Part shown: positions 9,444 to 44,129 of the stretch, piece by piece
How positions within the stretch are numbered: position 1 is the first letter of the stretch
Layout of the letters: every line of letters begins with the position of its first letter
From: Candidatus Methylobacter titanis
GTDB lineage: Bacteria > Pseudomonadota > Gammaproteobacteria > Methylococcales > Methylomonadaceae
Direction: 5' to 3'
Length of the DNA stretch: 56,091 nucleotides
NCBI GenBank assembly: GCA_029946125.1
Contig: JAQSDX010000011.1
Coordinates: 15,564 to 71,654, forward strand
Made by a program: the position numbers and the translations under genes
Notes under the pieces: generated by a model
Database searches by the model: none
Seen by the model: the letters and a program-made list of their open reading frames with translations, nothing else
What the model was told of the DNA's origin: nothing

Positions 9444-11894
9444 ATGCAAGAAAATTATAAGCCGTTGGCAATCGAGCAAGAAGTACAGGCCGCCTGGGAA
9501 GTTTCAGGCGTATTTAATGTGTCGGAATCATCGACGCAACCTAAGTATTATTGCTTGGCCATGTTCCCTTATCCCAGCGGTAAATTACACATGGGGCATG
9601 TCCGTAATTATACTATTGGCGACGTTATCAGCCGCTATCAGCGTATGTTGGGCAAAAATGTTATGCAGCCTATGGGTTGGGATGCATTCGGTCTGCCGGC
9701 AGAAAATGCCGCAATGCAGCACGGCGTACATCCTGCCGACTGGACCTACAGCAACATCGACTATATGCGCGACCAGCTCAAACGGCTGGGTTTCGGCTAT
9801 GACTGGAACCGCGAATTAGCCACTTGCGATCCGCAATATTACAAGTGGGAGCAATGGTTTTTTCTGAAGTTGCTGAACAAAGGTCTGGTTTATAAAAAAA
9901 CCGCACCGGTCAACTGGTGTCCGCATGATAAAACCGTTCTGGCTAATGAGCAGGTCATTGATGGCTGTTGCTGGCGTTGCGATACCCCGGTCGAACGCAA
10001 AGAAATTGCCCAATGGTTTTTAAAAATCACTGCCTATGCGGATGAATTGCTCAGCTCCCTGGAAGCCTTGGATGGCTGGCCGGAACAGGTCAAAACCATG
10101 CAGGTTAACTGGATAGGTCGCTCTGAAGGCGTGGAGATGAATTTCCCTGTGCCTGATTCTGAGCCTGTCAGCATCTATACCACGCGTCCCGATACGCTGA
10201 TGGGGGTGACCTATCTTGCCGTAGCAGCGGAACATCCTCTGGCGTTAAAAGCCGCAGCAAGCAATGCTGACATCAGCGCATTCATAGCCGATTGCAAGAT
10301 GATGGAAACCTCGGAAGCGGCCATGGAAACCATGGAAAAACGCGGTATTGATTCCGGTATTAAAGCGCTGCATCCGATCACCGGTGAACCCGTTCCGGTA
10401 TGGATTGCCAATTTCGTGTTGATGGGTTACGGCACCGGTGCGGTGATGTCTGTTCCTGCTCATGACCAACGCGATTTCGAGTTCGCGCTTAAGTACGGTA
10501 TCGCGATCAAACAGGTGGTTTTTGCCAAAGACGGTGAAGTCGCCGACGATTGTTCAGAGCAGGCTTATACCGTAAAAGGCGTGTTAAAAAATTCAGGCGC
10601 GTTTGATGGTTTGACTTCCGAGCAGGCGTTTGCGGCTATTTCAGAAGCCCTGGAAAAAGATCATAAAGGTCAACGGAAAACCAATTTCCGCCTGCGCGAC
10701 TGGGGCGTTTCCCGTCAGCGTTACTGGGGTGCGCCGATCCCGGTTATTTATTGCGACGACTGCGGTACGGTTGCTGTTCCTGAGCAAGACCTGCCGGTAG
10801 AGTTGCCTAAAGATGTGGTGCTGGACGGCTCGCAATCGCCGCTGGTCGGACATCCGACTTTTTCCCATGTGGCTTGTCCGTCATGCGGCAAAGATGCGCA
10901 TCGGGAAACCGACACCTTCGATACCTTTATGGAGTCGTCCTGGTATTTCGCGCGTTTTGCCGGCAATAACCCGGATTCTATGCTCGATGAAAGCGCCAAA
11001 TACTGGCTGCCGGTCGATCATTATATCGGCGGTATCGAACACGCTATTTTGCATTTGTTGTATGCGCGGTTTTATACCAAATTATTGCGCGATGAAGGCT
11101 TGCTGGTTTGTGACGAGCCGTTTAAAAAACTGCTGACGCAAGGCATGGTGCTCAAAGACGGCAGTAAAATGTCCAAATCCAAGGGCAATACTGTCGATCC
11201 GCAAGGCCTGATCGATCAATACGGCGCAGATACCGTGCGGCTGTTTATCATGTTTGCAGCGCCTCCGGAGCAATCGCTGGAATGGTCTGACAGTGGCGTA
11301 GAGGGCGCATTCAGATTCCTGAAGCGGCTGTGGAAACAGGCTTATCAGCATAGTGAGGCCGGTGGTTCTACGGTGCCGCTCGATAAACAGGCATTAACCG
11401 AACAGCAACAGACAGTACGTCGATCACTGCATCTGACTATCCAGAAAGTGACCGACGATTTTGGCCGACGCTATACCTTTAATACCGTTATTGCCTCGAA
11501 TATGGAGCTGATCAACACCTTGGCTAAATTTGTCGATGACTCCGATAATGCCAAGGCGATTCGGCAGGAGGCATTGGAAGCCATTGTGTTGATGTTGTCG
11601 CCGATCGTGCCGCATATTTGCCATCAATTGTGGCTGGATTTGGGGCATCAGCAAGCCGTAGTTAGTGCATCATGGCCGGAAGTTGATATGACGGCTTTGG
11701 CGCAGGATACTTTGGAGTTGGTGCTGCAGGTTAACGGTAAATTGCGCAGCAAGATCAAGGTTTCGGTCACCGCGACTAAAGATGAAATAGAGGCAATGGC
11801 GTTGAATGATGAACAGGTTAAGCGCTTTATTGAAGGCAAGCCGGTTAGAAAGGTGATAGTGGTGCCTAATAAATTGGTCAATATTGTTGTTTAG
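9444..11894 (+). CDS. leuS: Leucyl-tRNA synthetase
   Basis: Class I aminoacyl-tRNA synthetase that charges tRNA-Leu. The 816-residue protein has the HIGH-type motif HMGHVRNY at about residues 49-56, an editing (CP1) domain with [12 protein letters not shown] near 245-256 and [14 protein letters not shown] near 335-350, the KMSKS loop KMSKSKGN near 575, an anticodon-binding helical domain, and a C-terminal domain ending in the NGK...PNKLVNIVV pattern. Length is slightly below the E. coli enzyme but complete. It begins an operon-like series with lptE and holA. Confidence 0.99.
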
Positions 11895-11950
11895 GCAAAA
11901 GGCGAAGGGCGAAAAAACCTAAACTTCAGGTTCCGTCGCCTTTAGCCTTG
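11895..11950. repeat. Heptad-hairpin repeat, copy A (leuS-lptE gap)
   Basis: Left arm GGCAAAA-GGCGAAG-GGCGAAA begins on the last base of the leuS stop codon. A partly complementary right arm, CGTCGCCTTTAGCCTT, follows across a loop near 11925. It belongs to the family of 7-bp-unit hairpins found at eight places in this window. Confidence 0.75.
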
Positions 11951-13567: not shown

Positions 13568-13605
13568 GTTTTTTTCGCCCTTCGCCCTTCGCCTTTCGTC
13601 TTTAT
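13568..13605. repeat. Heptad repeat, copy B (single arm) after holA
   Basis: Four 7-bp units, TTCGCCC-TTCGCCC-TTCGCCT-TTCGTCT, lie at about 13575-13602 after a T-rich stretch, between the convergent holA and histidine-kinase genes. Only one arm of the usual hairpin is present. It might still terminate transcription, but no partner arm is visible. Confidence 0.7.
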
Positions 13606-27303: not shown

Positions 27304-27381
27304 AAAGACGAAAGACGAAAGACGAAAGACGAAAGGCAAGGGGCGAAGGCTGTGTTTTTTTGCCTTTCGTCTTTTGCCTTG
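27304..27381. repeat. Heptad-hairpin repeat, copy C (pilW-hisS gap)
   Basis: The left arm contains four tandem 7-bp units of GACGAAA type (27307-27334) followed by GGCAAGGGGCGAAGG. The right arm TTTGCCTTTCGTCTTTTGCC is complementary. It is the most regular heptad array in the window and lies 4 bases after the pilW stop. Confidence 0.85.
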
Positions 27382-28728: not shown

Positions 28729-28740
28729 CATGGGTTTAAA

Positions 28741-28800
28741 AGGCGAAAAGCAAAGGGCAAAAAATGGTACCTTTCGCCCTTTGCTTTTCGCCTTTCGCCA
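28741..28800. repeat. Heptad-hairpin repeat, copy D (hisS-yfgM gap)
   Basis: AGGCGAAAAGCAAAGGGCAAAA and the complementary CTTTCGCCCTTTGCTTTTCGCC form a long stem around 28765-28770. The repeat lies wholly in the gap between the hisS stop and the yfgM start. Confidence 0.85.
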
Positions 28801-28829
28801 TTTTTAAACATCAAACAAGAGAAAAACAA

Positions 28830-29465
28830 GTGGAAATGTACGATACAGAAGAAGAACAGGTTGAAGCCTTAAAAAGATGGTGGAAAGAAAACTCAATCTC
28901 TATCATCGTCGGTTTGGTTATGGGTATTGTCATTATTCTGGGTTGGAATTATTGGCAGGATCATAAAAAAGAGCAGGCGGCGCAAGCTTCCGTAGCTTAT
29001 AGTCAATTACTAAAAGCACTGGACGAGGGTAAAAAAGACACAGTGGACAAACTGGCTGAACATATGCGGGAGCAATTTAAAGGTTTCGAATATGCGGCAT
29101 TCAGTAGTTTATTGCAGGCCAAATTAAAGTCCGAGCAAGGTGATTTCGCCGCAGCAAAGCAAATTTTGAAAACGGTTGCGGCAGAGTCGAATAAACATCT
29201 GAGTAATATCGCCAAGATAAGGCTGGTACGTCTAATGCTTGCTACCGGTGAATATGAACAGGGTTTACAAATAATTAACGATGTCGATGCCAAAACGGCA
29301 GTTAGCTACTCAGCTAATTATGATGAATTAGTCGGTGATTTGTACGTAGCTCTGGATCGCTTGGATGAGGCGCGCACTTCGTATCAGAATGCCTTAAGAG
29401 CTGGCCAACAGTCACCGTTGTTACAGTTCAAAATCGATGATCTGACCGCTCAAGAAAAGCTATAA
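28830..29465 (+). CDS. yfgM: YfgM-family periplasmic chaperone-like protein
   Basis: Ancillary SecYEG-associated membrane protein. The GTG at 28830 gives M-E-M-Y-D-T-E-E-E-Q, matching the usual family opening; the ATG two codons later is the alternative. The 211-residue product has a short cytoplasmic acidic/amphipathic part (EEEQVEALKRWWKEN), one transmembrane helix (SIIVGLVMGIVIILGWNYW) and a periplasmic TPR-like helical domain. The position between hisS and bamB is conserved. The frame is open further upstream into the heptad repeat, but those residues are not family-like. Confidence 0.93.
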   Translation: MEMYDTEEEQVEALKRWWKENSISIIVGLVMGIVIILGWNYWQDHKKEQAAQASVAYSQLLKALDEGKKDTVDKLAEHMREQFKGFEYAAFSSLLQAKLKSEQGDFAAAKQILKTVAAESNKHLSNIAKIRLVRLMLATGEYEQGLQIINDVDAKTAVSYSANYDELVGDLYVALDRLDEARTSYQNALRAGQQSPLLQFKIDDLTAQEKL

Positions 29466-29476
29466 ACTTAAAAATA

Positions 29477-30736
29477 ATGAGTAACTATTCAAGCTATGTG
29501 AGTCAGGCGAAAGGCAAAAGGCGCAAGACGAAAGGTTTTTTCGCCTTTTGCTTTCTGCCCTGTGCCTTCGTTGCTATCACCCTATTAACTGGCTGTACGG
29601 CTATTGATACCCTGGGTGAATCTATTTCCGGCATTACCGATTACTTTAGCGGCGGTGAAGATAATACGGCGCCTCCGAGTCTCCTGGTGGAGTACACCCC
29701 TGAAATTCAGATCGATGTCATCTGGAAGGAATCGGTGGGGGTAGGTGCTGACGAGCAATCGTTAAAATTGATACCCGTCATCGGCAGTGGAAAAATACTG
29801 GCGGCGGATCGTGAGGGCGTGGTGCAAGCCAGAAGCCTGACGACCGGTGATTTGCTTTGGGAGACTGAAACCGAGGTGCCTTTTTCCGGTGGACCGGGAC
29901 TGGGCGAAGGCACCGTGATTGTGGGCTCCAGCGATGCCGAAGTCGCTGCCTTAAATATTGAAACCGGAGCGGTATTGTGGAAAGTCGCAGTATCCAGCGA
30001 AGTGCTTTCGGTGCCGGTTATCGCCAATCATATTGTTATAGTGCGCACCACGGATGGCGCGGTGATCGCTCTTGATGAAAAGGCCGGCGGCAAGCTGTGG
30101 AGTTATGAGCACGCCGTACCTGCATTAAGTGTACGCGGAACTGGATCGCCGTTAATTGTTGAAGGTAAGGTAATCGGCGGTTACGACAGCGGAAAACTCA
30201 TGGCCTTGCGCCTGATTGACGGCAAATATGCGTGGGAAACCAGCATTGCCATTCCCAAGGGGCGGTCTGAGATTGAACGGCTGGTTGATCTGGATGTCGA
30301 TCCTATCGCCATTAACGGGGTGATTTACGTTGCCAGTTATCAGGGCGGCATAGCCGCTATTTCGGAAGTGGATGGCGATGTGTTGTGGCGCAATGAAAGC
30401 ATTTCGTCGCATTCCGGTTTGAGTAACGACTATCGGTACTTGTATCTGGCAGATTCCCAAAGCCATGTCATGCAACTGGATCAGCGTAGCGGTGCGTCCT
30501 TGTGGAAACAAAAGGATTTACATCAAAGAAGATTAACCGCTCCCGGCGTCTATGAAAATTATGTGGTAGTGGGCGATCTTGAAGGCTATGTGCATTGGTT
30601 GTCCAGTACCGATGGCAGGCAACTAGGTCGTGTACAAGTGACCGACGGCCCAATTGATGCCCAGCCAATCGTGGTAGATAATACTGTTTATGTTTATGCA
30701 AAAGACGGCACCCTGGCCGCTTTAAAAGTCCGATAA
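29477..30736 (+). CDS. bamB: Outer-membrane assembly lipoprotein BamB, signal peptide built from a repeat
   Basis: BamB is an eight-bladed beta-propeller lipoprotein of the BAM complex that inserts outer-membrane proteins. The 419-residue product has a lipobox LLTGC (Cys 40) and propeller motifs such as GDLLWETETEVPFSGGPG, GAVLWKVAV and GDVLWRNES, ending KDGTLAALKVR. The signal peptide is odd: its charged part (AKGKRRKTKG) and most of its hydrophobic part (FFAFCFLPCAF) are encoded by a copy of the dispersed heptad-hairpin repeat (29504-29570). Starts possible are ATG 29477 or GTG 29498; neither has a clear ribosome site, and every usable start is followed by the repeat. It lies 11 bp after yfgM. 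Confidence 0.93.
   Translation: MSNYSSYVSQAKGKRRKTKGFFAFCFLPCAFVAITLLTGCTAIDTLGESISGITDYFSGGEDNTAPPSLLVEYTPEIQIDVIWKESVGVGADEQSLKLIPVIGSGKILAADREGVVQARSLTTGDLLWETETEVPFSGGPGLGEGTVIVGSSDAEVAALNIETGAVLWKVAVSSEVLSVPVIANHIVIVRTTDGAVIALDEKAGGKLWSYEHAVPALSVRGTGSPLIVEGKVIGGYDSGKLMALRLIDGKYAWETSIAIPKGRSEIERLVDLDVDPIAINGVIYVASYQGGIAAISEVDGDVLWRNESISSHSGLSNDYRYLYLADSQSHVMQLDQRSGASLWKQKDLHQRRLTAPGVYENYVVVGDLEGYVHWLSSTDGRQLGRVQVTDGPIDAQPIVVDNTVYVYAKDGTLAALKVR
29504..29570. repeat. Heptad-hairpin repeat, copy E, inside bamB coding sequence
   Basis: Left arm in exact 7-bp units: GGCGAAA-GGCAAAA-GGCGCAA-GACGAAA (29506-29533). Right arm CGCCTTTTGCTTTCTGCCC and onward to 29570. It is the only one of eight copies inside a gene, encoding residues about 10-31 of the BamB precursor. 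Confidence 0.88.
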
Positions 30737-30755
30737 AAAAATACCAATTTTATAC

Positions 30756-30907
30756 TGGAACGCGGATGATACGGATTTAAACGGATAAAAAAGGCGAAGG
30801 GCAAAGGGCGAAAAAACCATCTTTCGCCCTTTGCCCTTCGCATTGTTCCGCTGTGTTATTTCTATTTTATCTGTGTTTATCCTATTCATCTGCGTCATCC
30901 ACGTTCA
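30756..30907. repeat. Composite nested repeat between bamB and der
   Basis: Outer arms: GGAACGCGGATGATACGGAT onward (30757-30786) and its near-complement ending CATCCACGTTC (30869-30906). Inside lies a heptad hairpin (copy F): GGCGAAG-GGCAAAG-GGCGAAA (about 30792-30812) with a right arm at 30821-30841. Two unrelated repeat families are therefore nested in one 193-bp gap. Confidence 0.82.
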
Positions 30908-30929
30908 ATTTTTTAACTTTTGAGTTGAT

Positions 30930-32330: not shown

Positions 32331-32391
32331 GCAAGGTAAAGGGTGAGGGCTGTGTTTTTTGCCTTTCGTCCTTTGCCTTTTGCCTGTTATT
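32331..32391. repeat. Heptad-hairpin repeat, copy G (der-tpx gap)
   Basis: Degenerate left arm GGTAAAGGGTGAGGGC and a clear right arm TTTGCCTTTCGTCCTTTGCC. The central GGCTGTGTTTTTT is shared with copy C at 27348-27360, showing common descent of the loops as well as the arms. Confidence 0.75.
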
Positions 32392-44022: not shown

Positions 44023-44093
44023 TGACAGGCGAAGGGCGAAAAAAACTTGCATTGAGGTTTAAGATTTTTTTTTCAATGTTTAGCCTTTAGCCT
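44023..44093. repeat. Heptad-hairpin repeat, copy H (upstream of ppk)
   Basis: Left arm AGGCGAAGGGCGAAAAAA, long A/T-rich middle, right arm TAGCCTTTAGCCT. It is the most degenerate copy and resembles copy A, whose right arm also contains CCTTTAGCCTT. Confidence 0.65.
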
Positions 44094-44129
44094 AAAATAA
44101 TACCAACCGATTTTAAATCTGAGCGCAAC

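Follow-up and report, generated by a model that had tools for sequence, protein, structure and literature searches.

A dispersed palindromic heptad repeat probably captured as part of the BamB signal peptide in a Methylobacter lineage

The window, that is, the whole 56,091-nt stretch of Candidatus Methylobacter titanis DNA analyzed here (on contig C22 of the genome set), contains a bamB gene, whose nearest named relatives belong to Methylobacter. The product scored 408 bits against the BamB profile TIGR03300 (cut-off 285), in a match that starts only from residue 28, and did not reach the threshold of another BamB model, NF008351 (328 versus 423). Because it exceeds the curated cut-off of TIGR03300 and carries a lipobox cysteine (LTGC, codons 37–40), it was assigned as the lipoprotein BamB. 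The gene and the segments of its 5΄ end are as follows.

29477–30736, + strand: bamB, outer membrane assembly lipoprotein of 419 aa (open reading frame and TIGR03300 match)
29477–29502, + strand: ATG and AT-rich prefix encoding MSNYSSYVS, single copy in the genome and common to the insertion alleles, with the ATG placed as in insertion-free relatives
29503–29536, + strand: heptad element, left arm: four imperfect units and one partial unit, translated as the basic n-region QAKGKRRKTKG
29537–29569, + strand: heptad element, T-run and inverted right arm, which code for the larger part of the hydrophobic segment, FFAFCFLPCAF
29570–29596, + strand: end of the ancestral signal peptide, VAITLLTGC with its lipobox, recognized by alignment with insertion-free relatives; Cys40 is the predicted lipidation site

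Codons 10–31 (29503–29569) constitute an inverted array of imperfect 7-bp units that encodes QAKGKRRKTKGFFAFCFLPCAF. The left arm reads TCAGGCG AAAGGCA AAAGGCG CAAGACG, in which all four units are different, and continues with AAAGGTTTT; the centre is T-rich, and the right arm reads TTTCGCC TTTTGCT TTCTGCC CTGTGCC. The two arms are 81% complementary over 21 nt, and the 67-nt array yielded an RNA hairpin z-score of –3.16, with 4 of 200 shuffles folding equally well. A previous interpretation made from the letters alone (the sequence-only reading) had placed a dispersed heptad repeat at 29504–29570, with four 7-bp units of its left arm between the start codon and the lipobox, and had proposed that this repeat supplies the charged residues and the greater share of the hydrophobic stretch in the BamB signal peptide. 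Our boundaries agree with this to within one base, the four units being imperfect. The net charge of the n-region is +6, and the 40-residue leader would function as a normal signal peptide of a lipoprotein, if a rather long one.

The array in bamB is a member of a dispersed family. A 20-mer heptad pattern matched the 3.51-Mb genome of the organism at 182 sites with up to three mismatches, compared with 11 for the reversed control, and at 80 sites with two mismatches, compared with 0; therefore, the array is more than a chance occurrence. Part of these matches are AAAGGCT-type arrays, which contain stop codons. Looser scans with a 13-mer were noisy (165 matches against 81 for the control), and the 20-mer was used instead. 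Across the taxonomic family, at least one 20-mer match was found in 41 of 81 genomes, many of them with counts no higher than the control, and high counts were patchy (306 in G022, 267 in G094 and 96 in G069). The 2.1-Mb genome of G094, which belongs to another genus of the family, displayed only two matches when a shorter, stricter G/A pattern was used; its 20-mer matches are presumably mostly arrays of the stop-bearing T variant, AAAGGCT. A sample of approximately 619 kb of the organism's own genome, biased in that many stretches were picked at matches, contained 53 arrays, of which 37 were intergenic and 16 overlapped open reading frames (ORFs). The window itself contains the following additional copies, four of which lie within 2.2 kb of bamB (those beginning at 27304, 28738, 30788 and 32338).

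11891–11950, unstranded: heptad element copy at an ORF end, mostly intergenic (pattern scan)
13573–13603, unstranded: single intergenic heptad arm
27304–27381, unstranded: copy in the intergenic region preceding hisS, containing 4.6 AAAGACG units in tandem (repeat and fold analysis)
28738–28802, unstranded: intergenic hairpin copy between hisS and yfgM (hairpin z-score –6.55)
30788–30847, unstranded: intergenic hairpin copy in the bamB–der gap, enclosed by another palindrome (hairpin z-score –9.52)
32338–32387, unstranded: intergenic copy downstream of der
44025–44095, unstranded: degenerate heptad hairpin (pattern scan)

In the gap between hisS and yfgM (28729–28835 in the window), the window and the loci L002, L008, L009, L013 and L103, from different species, carry unrelated palindromic repeats at the same junction, among them heptad hairpins, CACGAAG-type hairpins and others, as if the junction were an exchangeable landing site or some hairpin were needed there. 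The longest yfgM ORF (28764–29465) begins within the heptad copy, and its true start was taken as approximately 28836; automatic annotation could thus give YfgM a false, repeat-coded N-terminus. In the gap between bamB and der (30737–30929), the heptad hairpin is surrounded by another palindromic repeat (in relatives, of the GGAACGCGGATGACGCAGAT type), and several relatives have only 4 nt between the two genes. Positions 1–119 of the window consist of a perfect 63-bp tandem duplication (1.9 copies).

As to mobility, the genome contains seven Y1_Tnp matches, and within 2.0–3.3-kb loci at these genes only one weak heptad match, with four mismatches, was found (in L124); an origin as a RAYT-mobilised REP element (RAYT being a Y1 transposase) was accordingly set aside. 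No transposase was identified for the heptad element, and no clear target duplication was visible by eye when filled and empty bamB sites were compared; the arms are inverted repeats. The AT-rich prefix behind the bamB ATG has no second copy in the genome and was therefore excluded as part of the dispersed element.

We compared 30 bamB starts, comprising 21 of the first 22 among 80 listed loci, eight loci from the genus and the window; 58 listed loci (L023–L080) and the distant L021 were left out. The genus set amounted to 23 bamB loci, with 22 of 23 genomes matched, from which 14 duplicates of the listed loci or of the window, and the fragment L111, were omitted. The insertion was present in 18 of the 30 starts and absent from 12. 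The signal peptides of insertion alleles span 30–40 residues up to the Cys, most of them starting with M-x-N or M-x-D, and those of insertion-free alleles span 15–17 residues and start with MR. The 40 bases upstream of bamB aligned without gaps in 29 of 30 sequences (L019 was shifted) and the ATG occupies the same place, which indicates that the start codon is ancestral. Since the genome has no second copy of the prefix, the insertion alleles appear to be homologous rather than independent hits of a larger element. The nearest relative, L013, carries an insertion allele of the same length as that of the window. Here a member of a dispersed repeat family, missing from relatives, lies in frame within a gene that is otherwise conserved, as do palindromic repeats of the RU or Rickettsia type.

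The phylogenetic distribution of the insertion is not simple. When mapped onto YfgM, mature BamB and Der trees (30 protein rows; 24 DNA rows), presence and absence required four changes, and the AU test rejected a single clade of insertion alleles (P = 9 × 10^–4 for proteins and 1 × 10^–40 for DNA); a single gain at the base is contradicted by these results. Empty sites occurred in L110, in the outgroups and, within the insertion-bearing clade, in L007, L010 and L011, all three metagenome assemblies according to their titles. In the alignment of bamB starts, the filled alleles contained no trace of the first codons of the short alleles, so the latter do not look like simple excisions. The divergence of the short alleles is similar to that of their flanks, which fits recombination and loss alike. 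The short form of L007, L010 and L011 may have been acquired by recombination with lineages that kept it, and recombination or repeated loss would have to be invoked for the history of the insertion.

What has been conserved in the insertion alleles is probably a property of the encoded protein. In all 18 alleles, the best 12-residue Kyte–Doolittle mean was at least 2.23 and the L-x-G-C motif was present, and the net charge of the n-region was at least +1 in 16 (net 0 in L008 and L009, by our own count). The heptad detector missed one of the 18 rows. The z-scores of the RNA hairpin ranged from –7.1 to +1.1 (60 shuffles each) and exceeded –2 in six alleles. Since hydrophobicity and L-x-G-C are retained in 18 of 18 alleles and the hairpin is weak in 6 of 18, the protein is a likelier object of selection than the hairpin. 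We accordingly consider it unlikely that the element's chief role is that of an mRNA hairpin covering the start region of bamB and tuning translation or transcript stability, with the protein sequence as a by-product. The fold is indeed strong in several alleles (z-scores of –7.1 in L006, –6.2 in L003 and –5.3 in L013), and the intergenic copies next to bamB fold very well; however, the alleles with weak hairpins also possess the open frame, the hydrophobic segment and L-x-G-C, and the hairpin as a conserved function is not supported.

The ancestral ATG is open through the repeat into BamB in all 18 insertion alleles, and no internal stop was present in the bamB matches of the genus. Gaps among the insertion alleles measured 3, 6, 9, 9, 9, 12, 12 and 21 nt, in other words, eight of eight were multiples of 3 and none was 7 nt; with a lower gap penalty, nine of nine were multiples of 3. 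As every row reads openly, its total is necessarily a multiple of 3. For the neighbouring intergenic copies, two sets were compared, with some flanking sequence included, and a further two-row set (1/4) was omitted; the fractions of gaps divisible by 3 were 3/10 and 2/13 (5/23 together; 4/25 at the lower penalty). The difference between bamB and intergenic gaps was significant (Fisher test, P = 1.6 × 10^–4; P = 1.4 × 10^–5 at the lower penalty). The in-frame gaps reflect purifying selection on the frame, as is expected in any coding region under selection.

The sequence-only reading had argued that loss or gain of a unit would shift the frame and abolish BamB export, and had offered two readings of the locus, chance capture and a switch resembling a contingency locus. 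The argument about the frame holds, in that each of the other two frames of the natural downstream sequence ends at a stop, after 5 codons in one and 11 in the other; a 7-nt change would thus abolish BamB. The proposal that slippage of 7-bp units turns BamB export on and off can nonetheless be given very little credence. It draws on the early stops that a 7-nt change in the bamB array would cause, on the 7-nt differences seen between species in the bamB–der copies at every gap penalty tried (in the hisS–yfgM copies at some penalties only) and on the variation of the 7-bp repeats of Haemophilus influenzae hmw1A. However, near-perfect tandem units able to slip are not present, as the array has only four units, all different, and TRF reported a period of 14 with 2.2 copies and 82% matches. 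Alleles differing by whole units in and out of frame were also not seen between species: all 18 are in frame, no 7-nt gap occurs, and L013 has the same length as the window. Moreover, BamB is a housekeeping assembly factor and no variable surface antigen. On the evidence of frame, units and length, a frame switch is not supported by the comparison between species. The comparison of bamB 5΄ ends that the sequence-only reading had recommended did reveal length variation among relatives, but neither a 7-nt gap nor an out-of-frame allele, and the other of its two readings, chance capture, is the one that we regard as best.

It is equally hard to believe that the annotated start is wrong and that the real signal peptide starts downstream of the basic arm of the repeat, because, although 12 of the 18 insertion alleles contain an in-frame TTG in the right arm (codon 24–27), beginning there leaves almost no n-region, the ATG is the same as in insertion-free relatives, and, in the window, none of the start codons ATG, GTG and TTG occurs in frame after codon 8 and ahead of the Cys. 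A start downstream of the repeat, named in the sequence-only reading as what would speak against a repeat-coded signal peptide, was looked for in the window and is ruled out there; apart from the ATG, the sole in-frame start preceding the Cys is a GTG at codon 8, which lies upstream of the repeat.

Heptad units were also found in export leaders outside bamB. In the organism's own genome, the genes for the type II secretion pseudopilins GspG, GspH and GspJ (L132:5572–7751; G000 contig C58, approximately 105.6–107.8 kb) carry the same 7-bp units as bamB directly behind the start codon. GspG exceeded its profile cut-off, and GspH and GspJ were assigned by matches below the cut-off together with gene order. 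The GspG leader reads MKQLLRFKAKGEKRKANNVGSPHQR followed by GFTLLE, and the GspJ leader begins with MSGNSQAKGEGRRAKYP. The leaders at this locus contain 7-bp units of two families, AAAGGCN and AAGGTTC, the latter encoding KVQGSRF. The gsp locus was found in 21 of 23 genus genomes, and heptad pairs were present in the leaders of gspG (13/21), gspH (14/21) and gspJ (12/20, one gene missing), 39 of 62 together, compared with 0 of 21 for gspI, which lies between them; one gspH leader, 187 aa long by the start rule, is surely overlong. Mature segments of equal length in the gsp genes of these 21 genomes contained no heptad pairs. The lengths of the gspG, gspH and gspJ leaders differ greatly between species; for example, the GspG leader has 12 residues in L180 and 19 in L171, L175 and L177, a difference of 7 residues, or 21 nt, or three units. 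Pseudopilin leaders are cytosolic and are removed by prepilin peptidase, so they should tolerate changes in unit number.

Such captures are rare, amounting to 4 leaders among the 53 arrays sampled in the own genome, 1 among 14 in G022 and 0 among 25 in G069. Overlaps between arrays and ORFs were defined by a longest-ORF rule, with no gene finder, and sorted by eye. Among the 16 overlapping arrays of the own genome, four were leaders lacking a later start that fits the protein (bamB, gspG, gspH and gspJ), and the others were start extensions, gene ends, weak single matches or unclear (TilS). In G022, 4 of 14 arrays in 400 kb overlapped ORFs, with bamB as the sole leader, and in G069, a genome of another genus, 6 of 25 did so, none as an export leader as judged by eye. 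The tilS gene of the own genome (L152:1573–2982, contig C101) may start inside a heptad array (VKGERQKAKISP...).

As 7 and 3 share no common factor, arrays of AAAGGCG or AAAGGCA give the same heptapeptide in every frame: KGERRKA for an ideal AAAGGCG array (RLSPFAF on the complement) and KGKRQKA for AAAGGCA (CLLPFAF on the complement); AAAGGCT has stops. In 28 real hairpins, 62 of 168 frames were open (37%, versus 40% in shuffles), and the notion that the heptad family is shaped to code was rejected, as real copies were no more often open than shuffles. Open frames of basic-then-hydrophobic character were four times commoner than in shuffles under thresholds of our own choosing (21/168, 12%, versus 3%). 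We read this as a compositional predisposition filtered by selection and not as a device. A bolder suggestion, which we put forward only tentatively and think rather doubtful, is that heptad hairpins are ready-made export signals, such that landing behind a start codon tends to give a basic-then-hydrophobic sequence in any frame and orientation. If this is the case, insertions of such repeats could allow a repeat-rich genome to acquire, extend or exchange signal peptides, with bamB and the three pseudopilin genes as the cases seen.

Taken together, the filled and empty sites, the in-frame gaps and the conserved protein character make it probable that an old repeat insertion was captured as the BamB signal peptide, its frame being kept by selection. 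A palindromic repeat of 7-bp units would have inserted directly behind the bamB ATG in the ancestor of one Methylobacter lineage, as the filled and empty sites suggest. Its left arm reads as basic and its right arm as hydrophobic, and the insert would thereby have lengthened and largely replaced the old signal peptide of 15–17 residues, with the ancestral ATG and lipobox apparently remaining in use. Selection since then would have kept the frame and the hydrophobic-plus-lipobox character, and between species the sequence, length and RNA hairpin of the repeat itself erode. N-terminal export leaders may be a tolerant landing place for heptad repeats, since heptads of the AAAGGCN and AAGGTTC families also occur in the leaders of GspG, GspH and GspJ. 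The frame-independent 7-bp coding of the ideal unit, with one strand basic and the other hydrophobic, may be a simple reason for this tolerance. The locus documents an intergenic-type repeat turning into part of a conserved protein and being kept in frame, with filled and empty sites and 18 orthologues, and cautions that a non-triplet repeat at the start of a coding sequence is not always a phase switch.

Among the literature matches listed (titles and the starts of abstracts, with subscription literature thinly covered), there was no published report of this heptad repeat in bamB or gsp leaders. The Rickettsia palindromic elements are palindromic repeats that lie in frame within protein genes; the bamB insertion resembles them in this respect, and they are longer and occur in another taxon. 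We know of none that serve as signal peptides. At H. influenzae hmw1A, 7-bp units in tandem likewise lie close to a gene whose product is exported. The hmw repeats, however, form numerous, nearly perfect units within the promoter and show variation within strains; none of these traits was seen in the bamB array.

Dispersed heptamer arrays are also known from Xanthomonas and Nostoc, where G-rich repeats are over-represented in non-coding regions and vary in unit number; in contrast to the bamB heptads, these are quadruplex-forming GGGNATC units and are under-represented in coding regions, according to the sections of the report available to us (Rehm 2015, PMC4692102). The TAACTGA heptamers of Beggiatoaceae are likewise dispersed and mostly intergenic, with those inside ORFs mainly at the protein periphery, and encode a frame-independent peptide, LSVISYQ, in one orientation (MacGregor 2015, PMC4679880). 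They differ in sequence, are direct repeats without a predicted fold and have stops in the forward orientation, and the portions of that account at hand describe no signal-peptide role (PMC4679880). A resemblance in kind also exists to RU-1 and RU-2, small mobile sequences of enterobacteria that are fused to genes, which are likewise dispersed, MITE-like repeats joined in frame to a gene (Delihas 2007, PMC2759123, as far as the available text describes them). Yersinia RU-2 is a precedent in print, and the capture of a repeat as a leader is not new in kind. The RU-2 case, in the available text, concerns a 168-bp element and a putative exported protein, whereas in bamB a hairpin of 7-bp units lies in a conserved housekeeping lipoprotein (PMC2759123). 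A conserved host gene with empty sites, a frame comparison and recurrence in pseudopilins do not appear in the available parts of the RU and TAACTGA accounts. Relative to RU-1 and RU-2 as presented there (PMC2759123), the bamB case adds empty sites, 18 filled orthologues, a comparison of reading frames and a recurrence in pseudopilin leaders.
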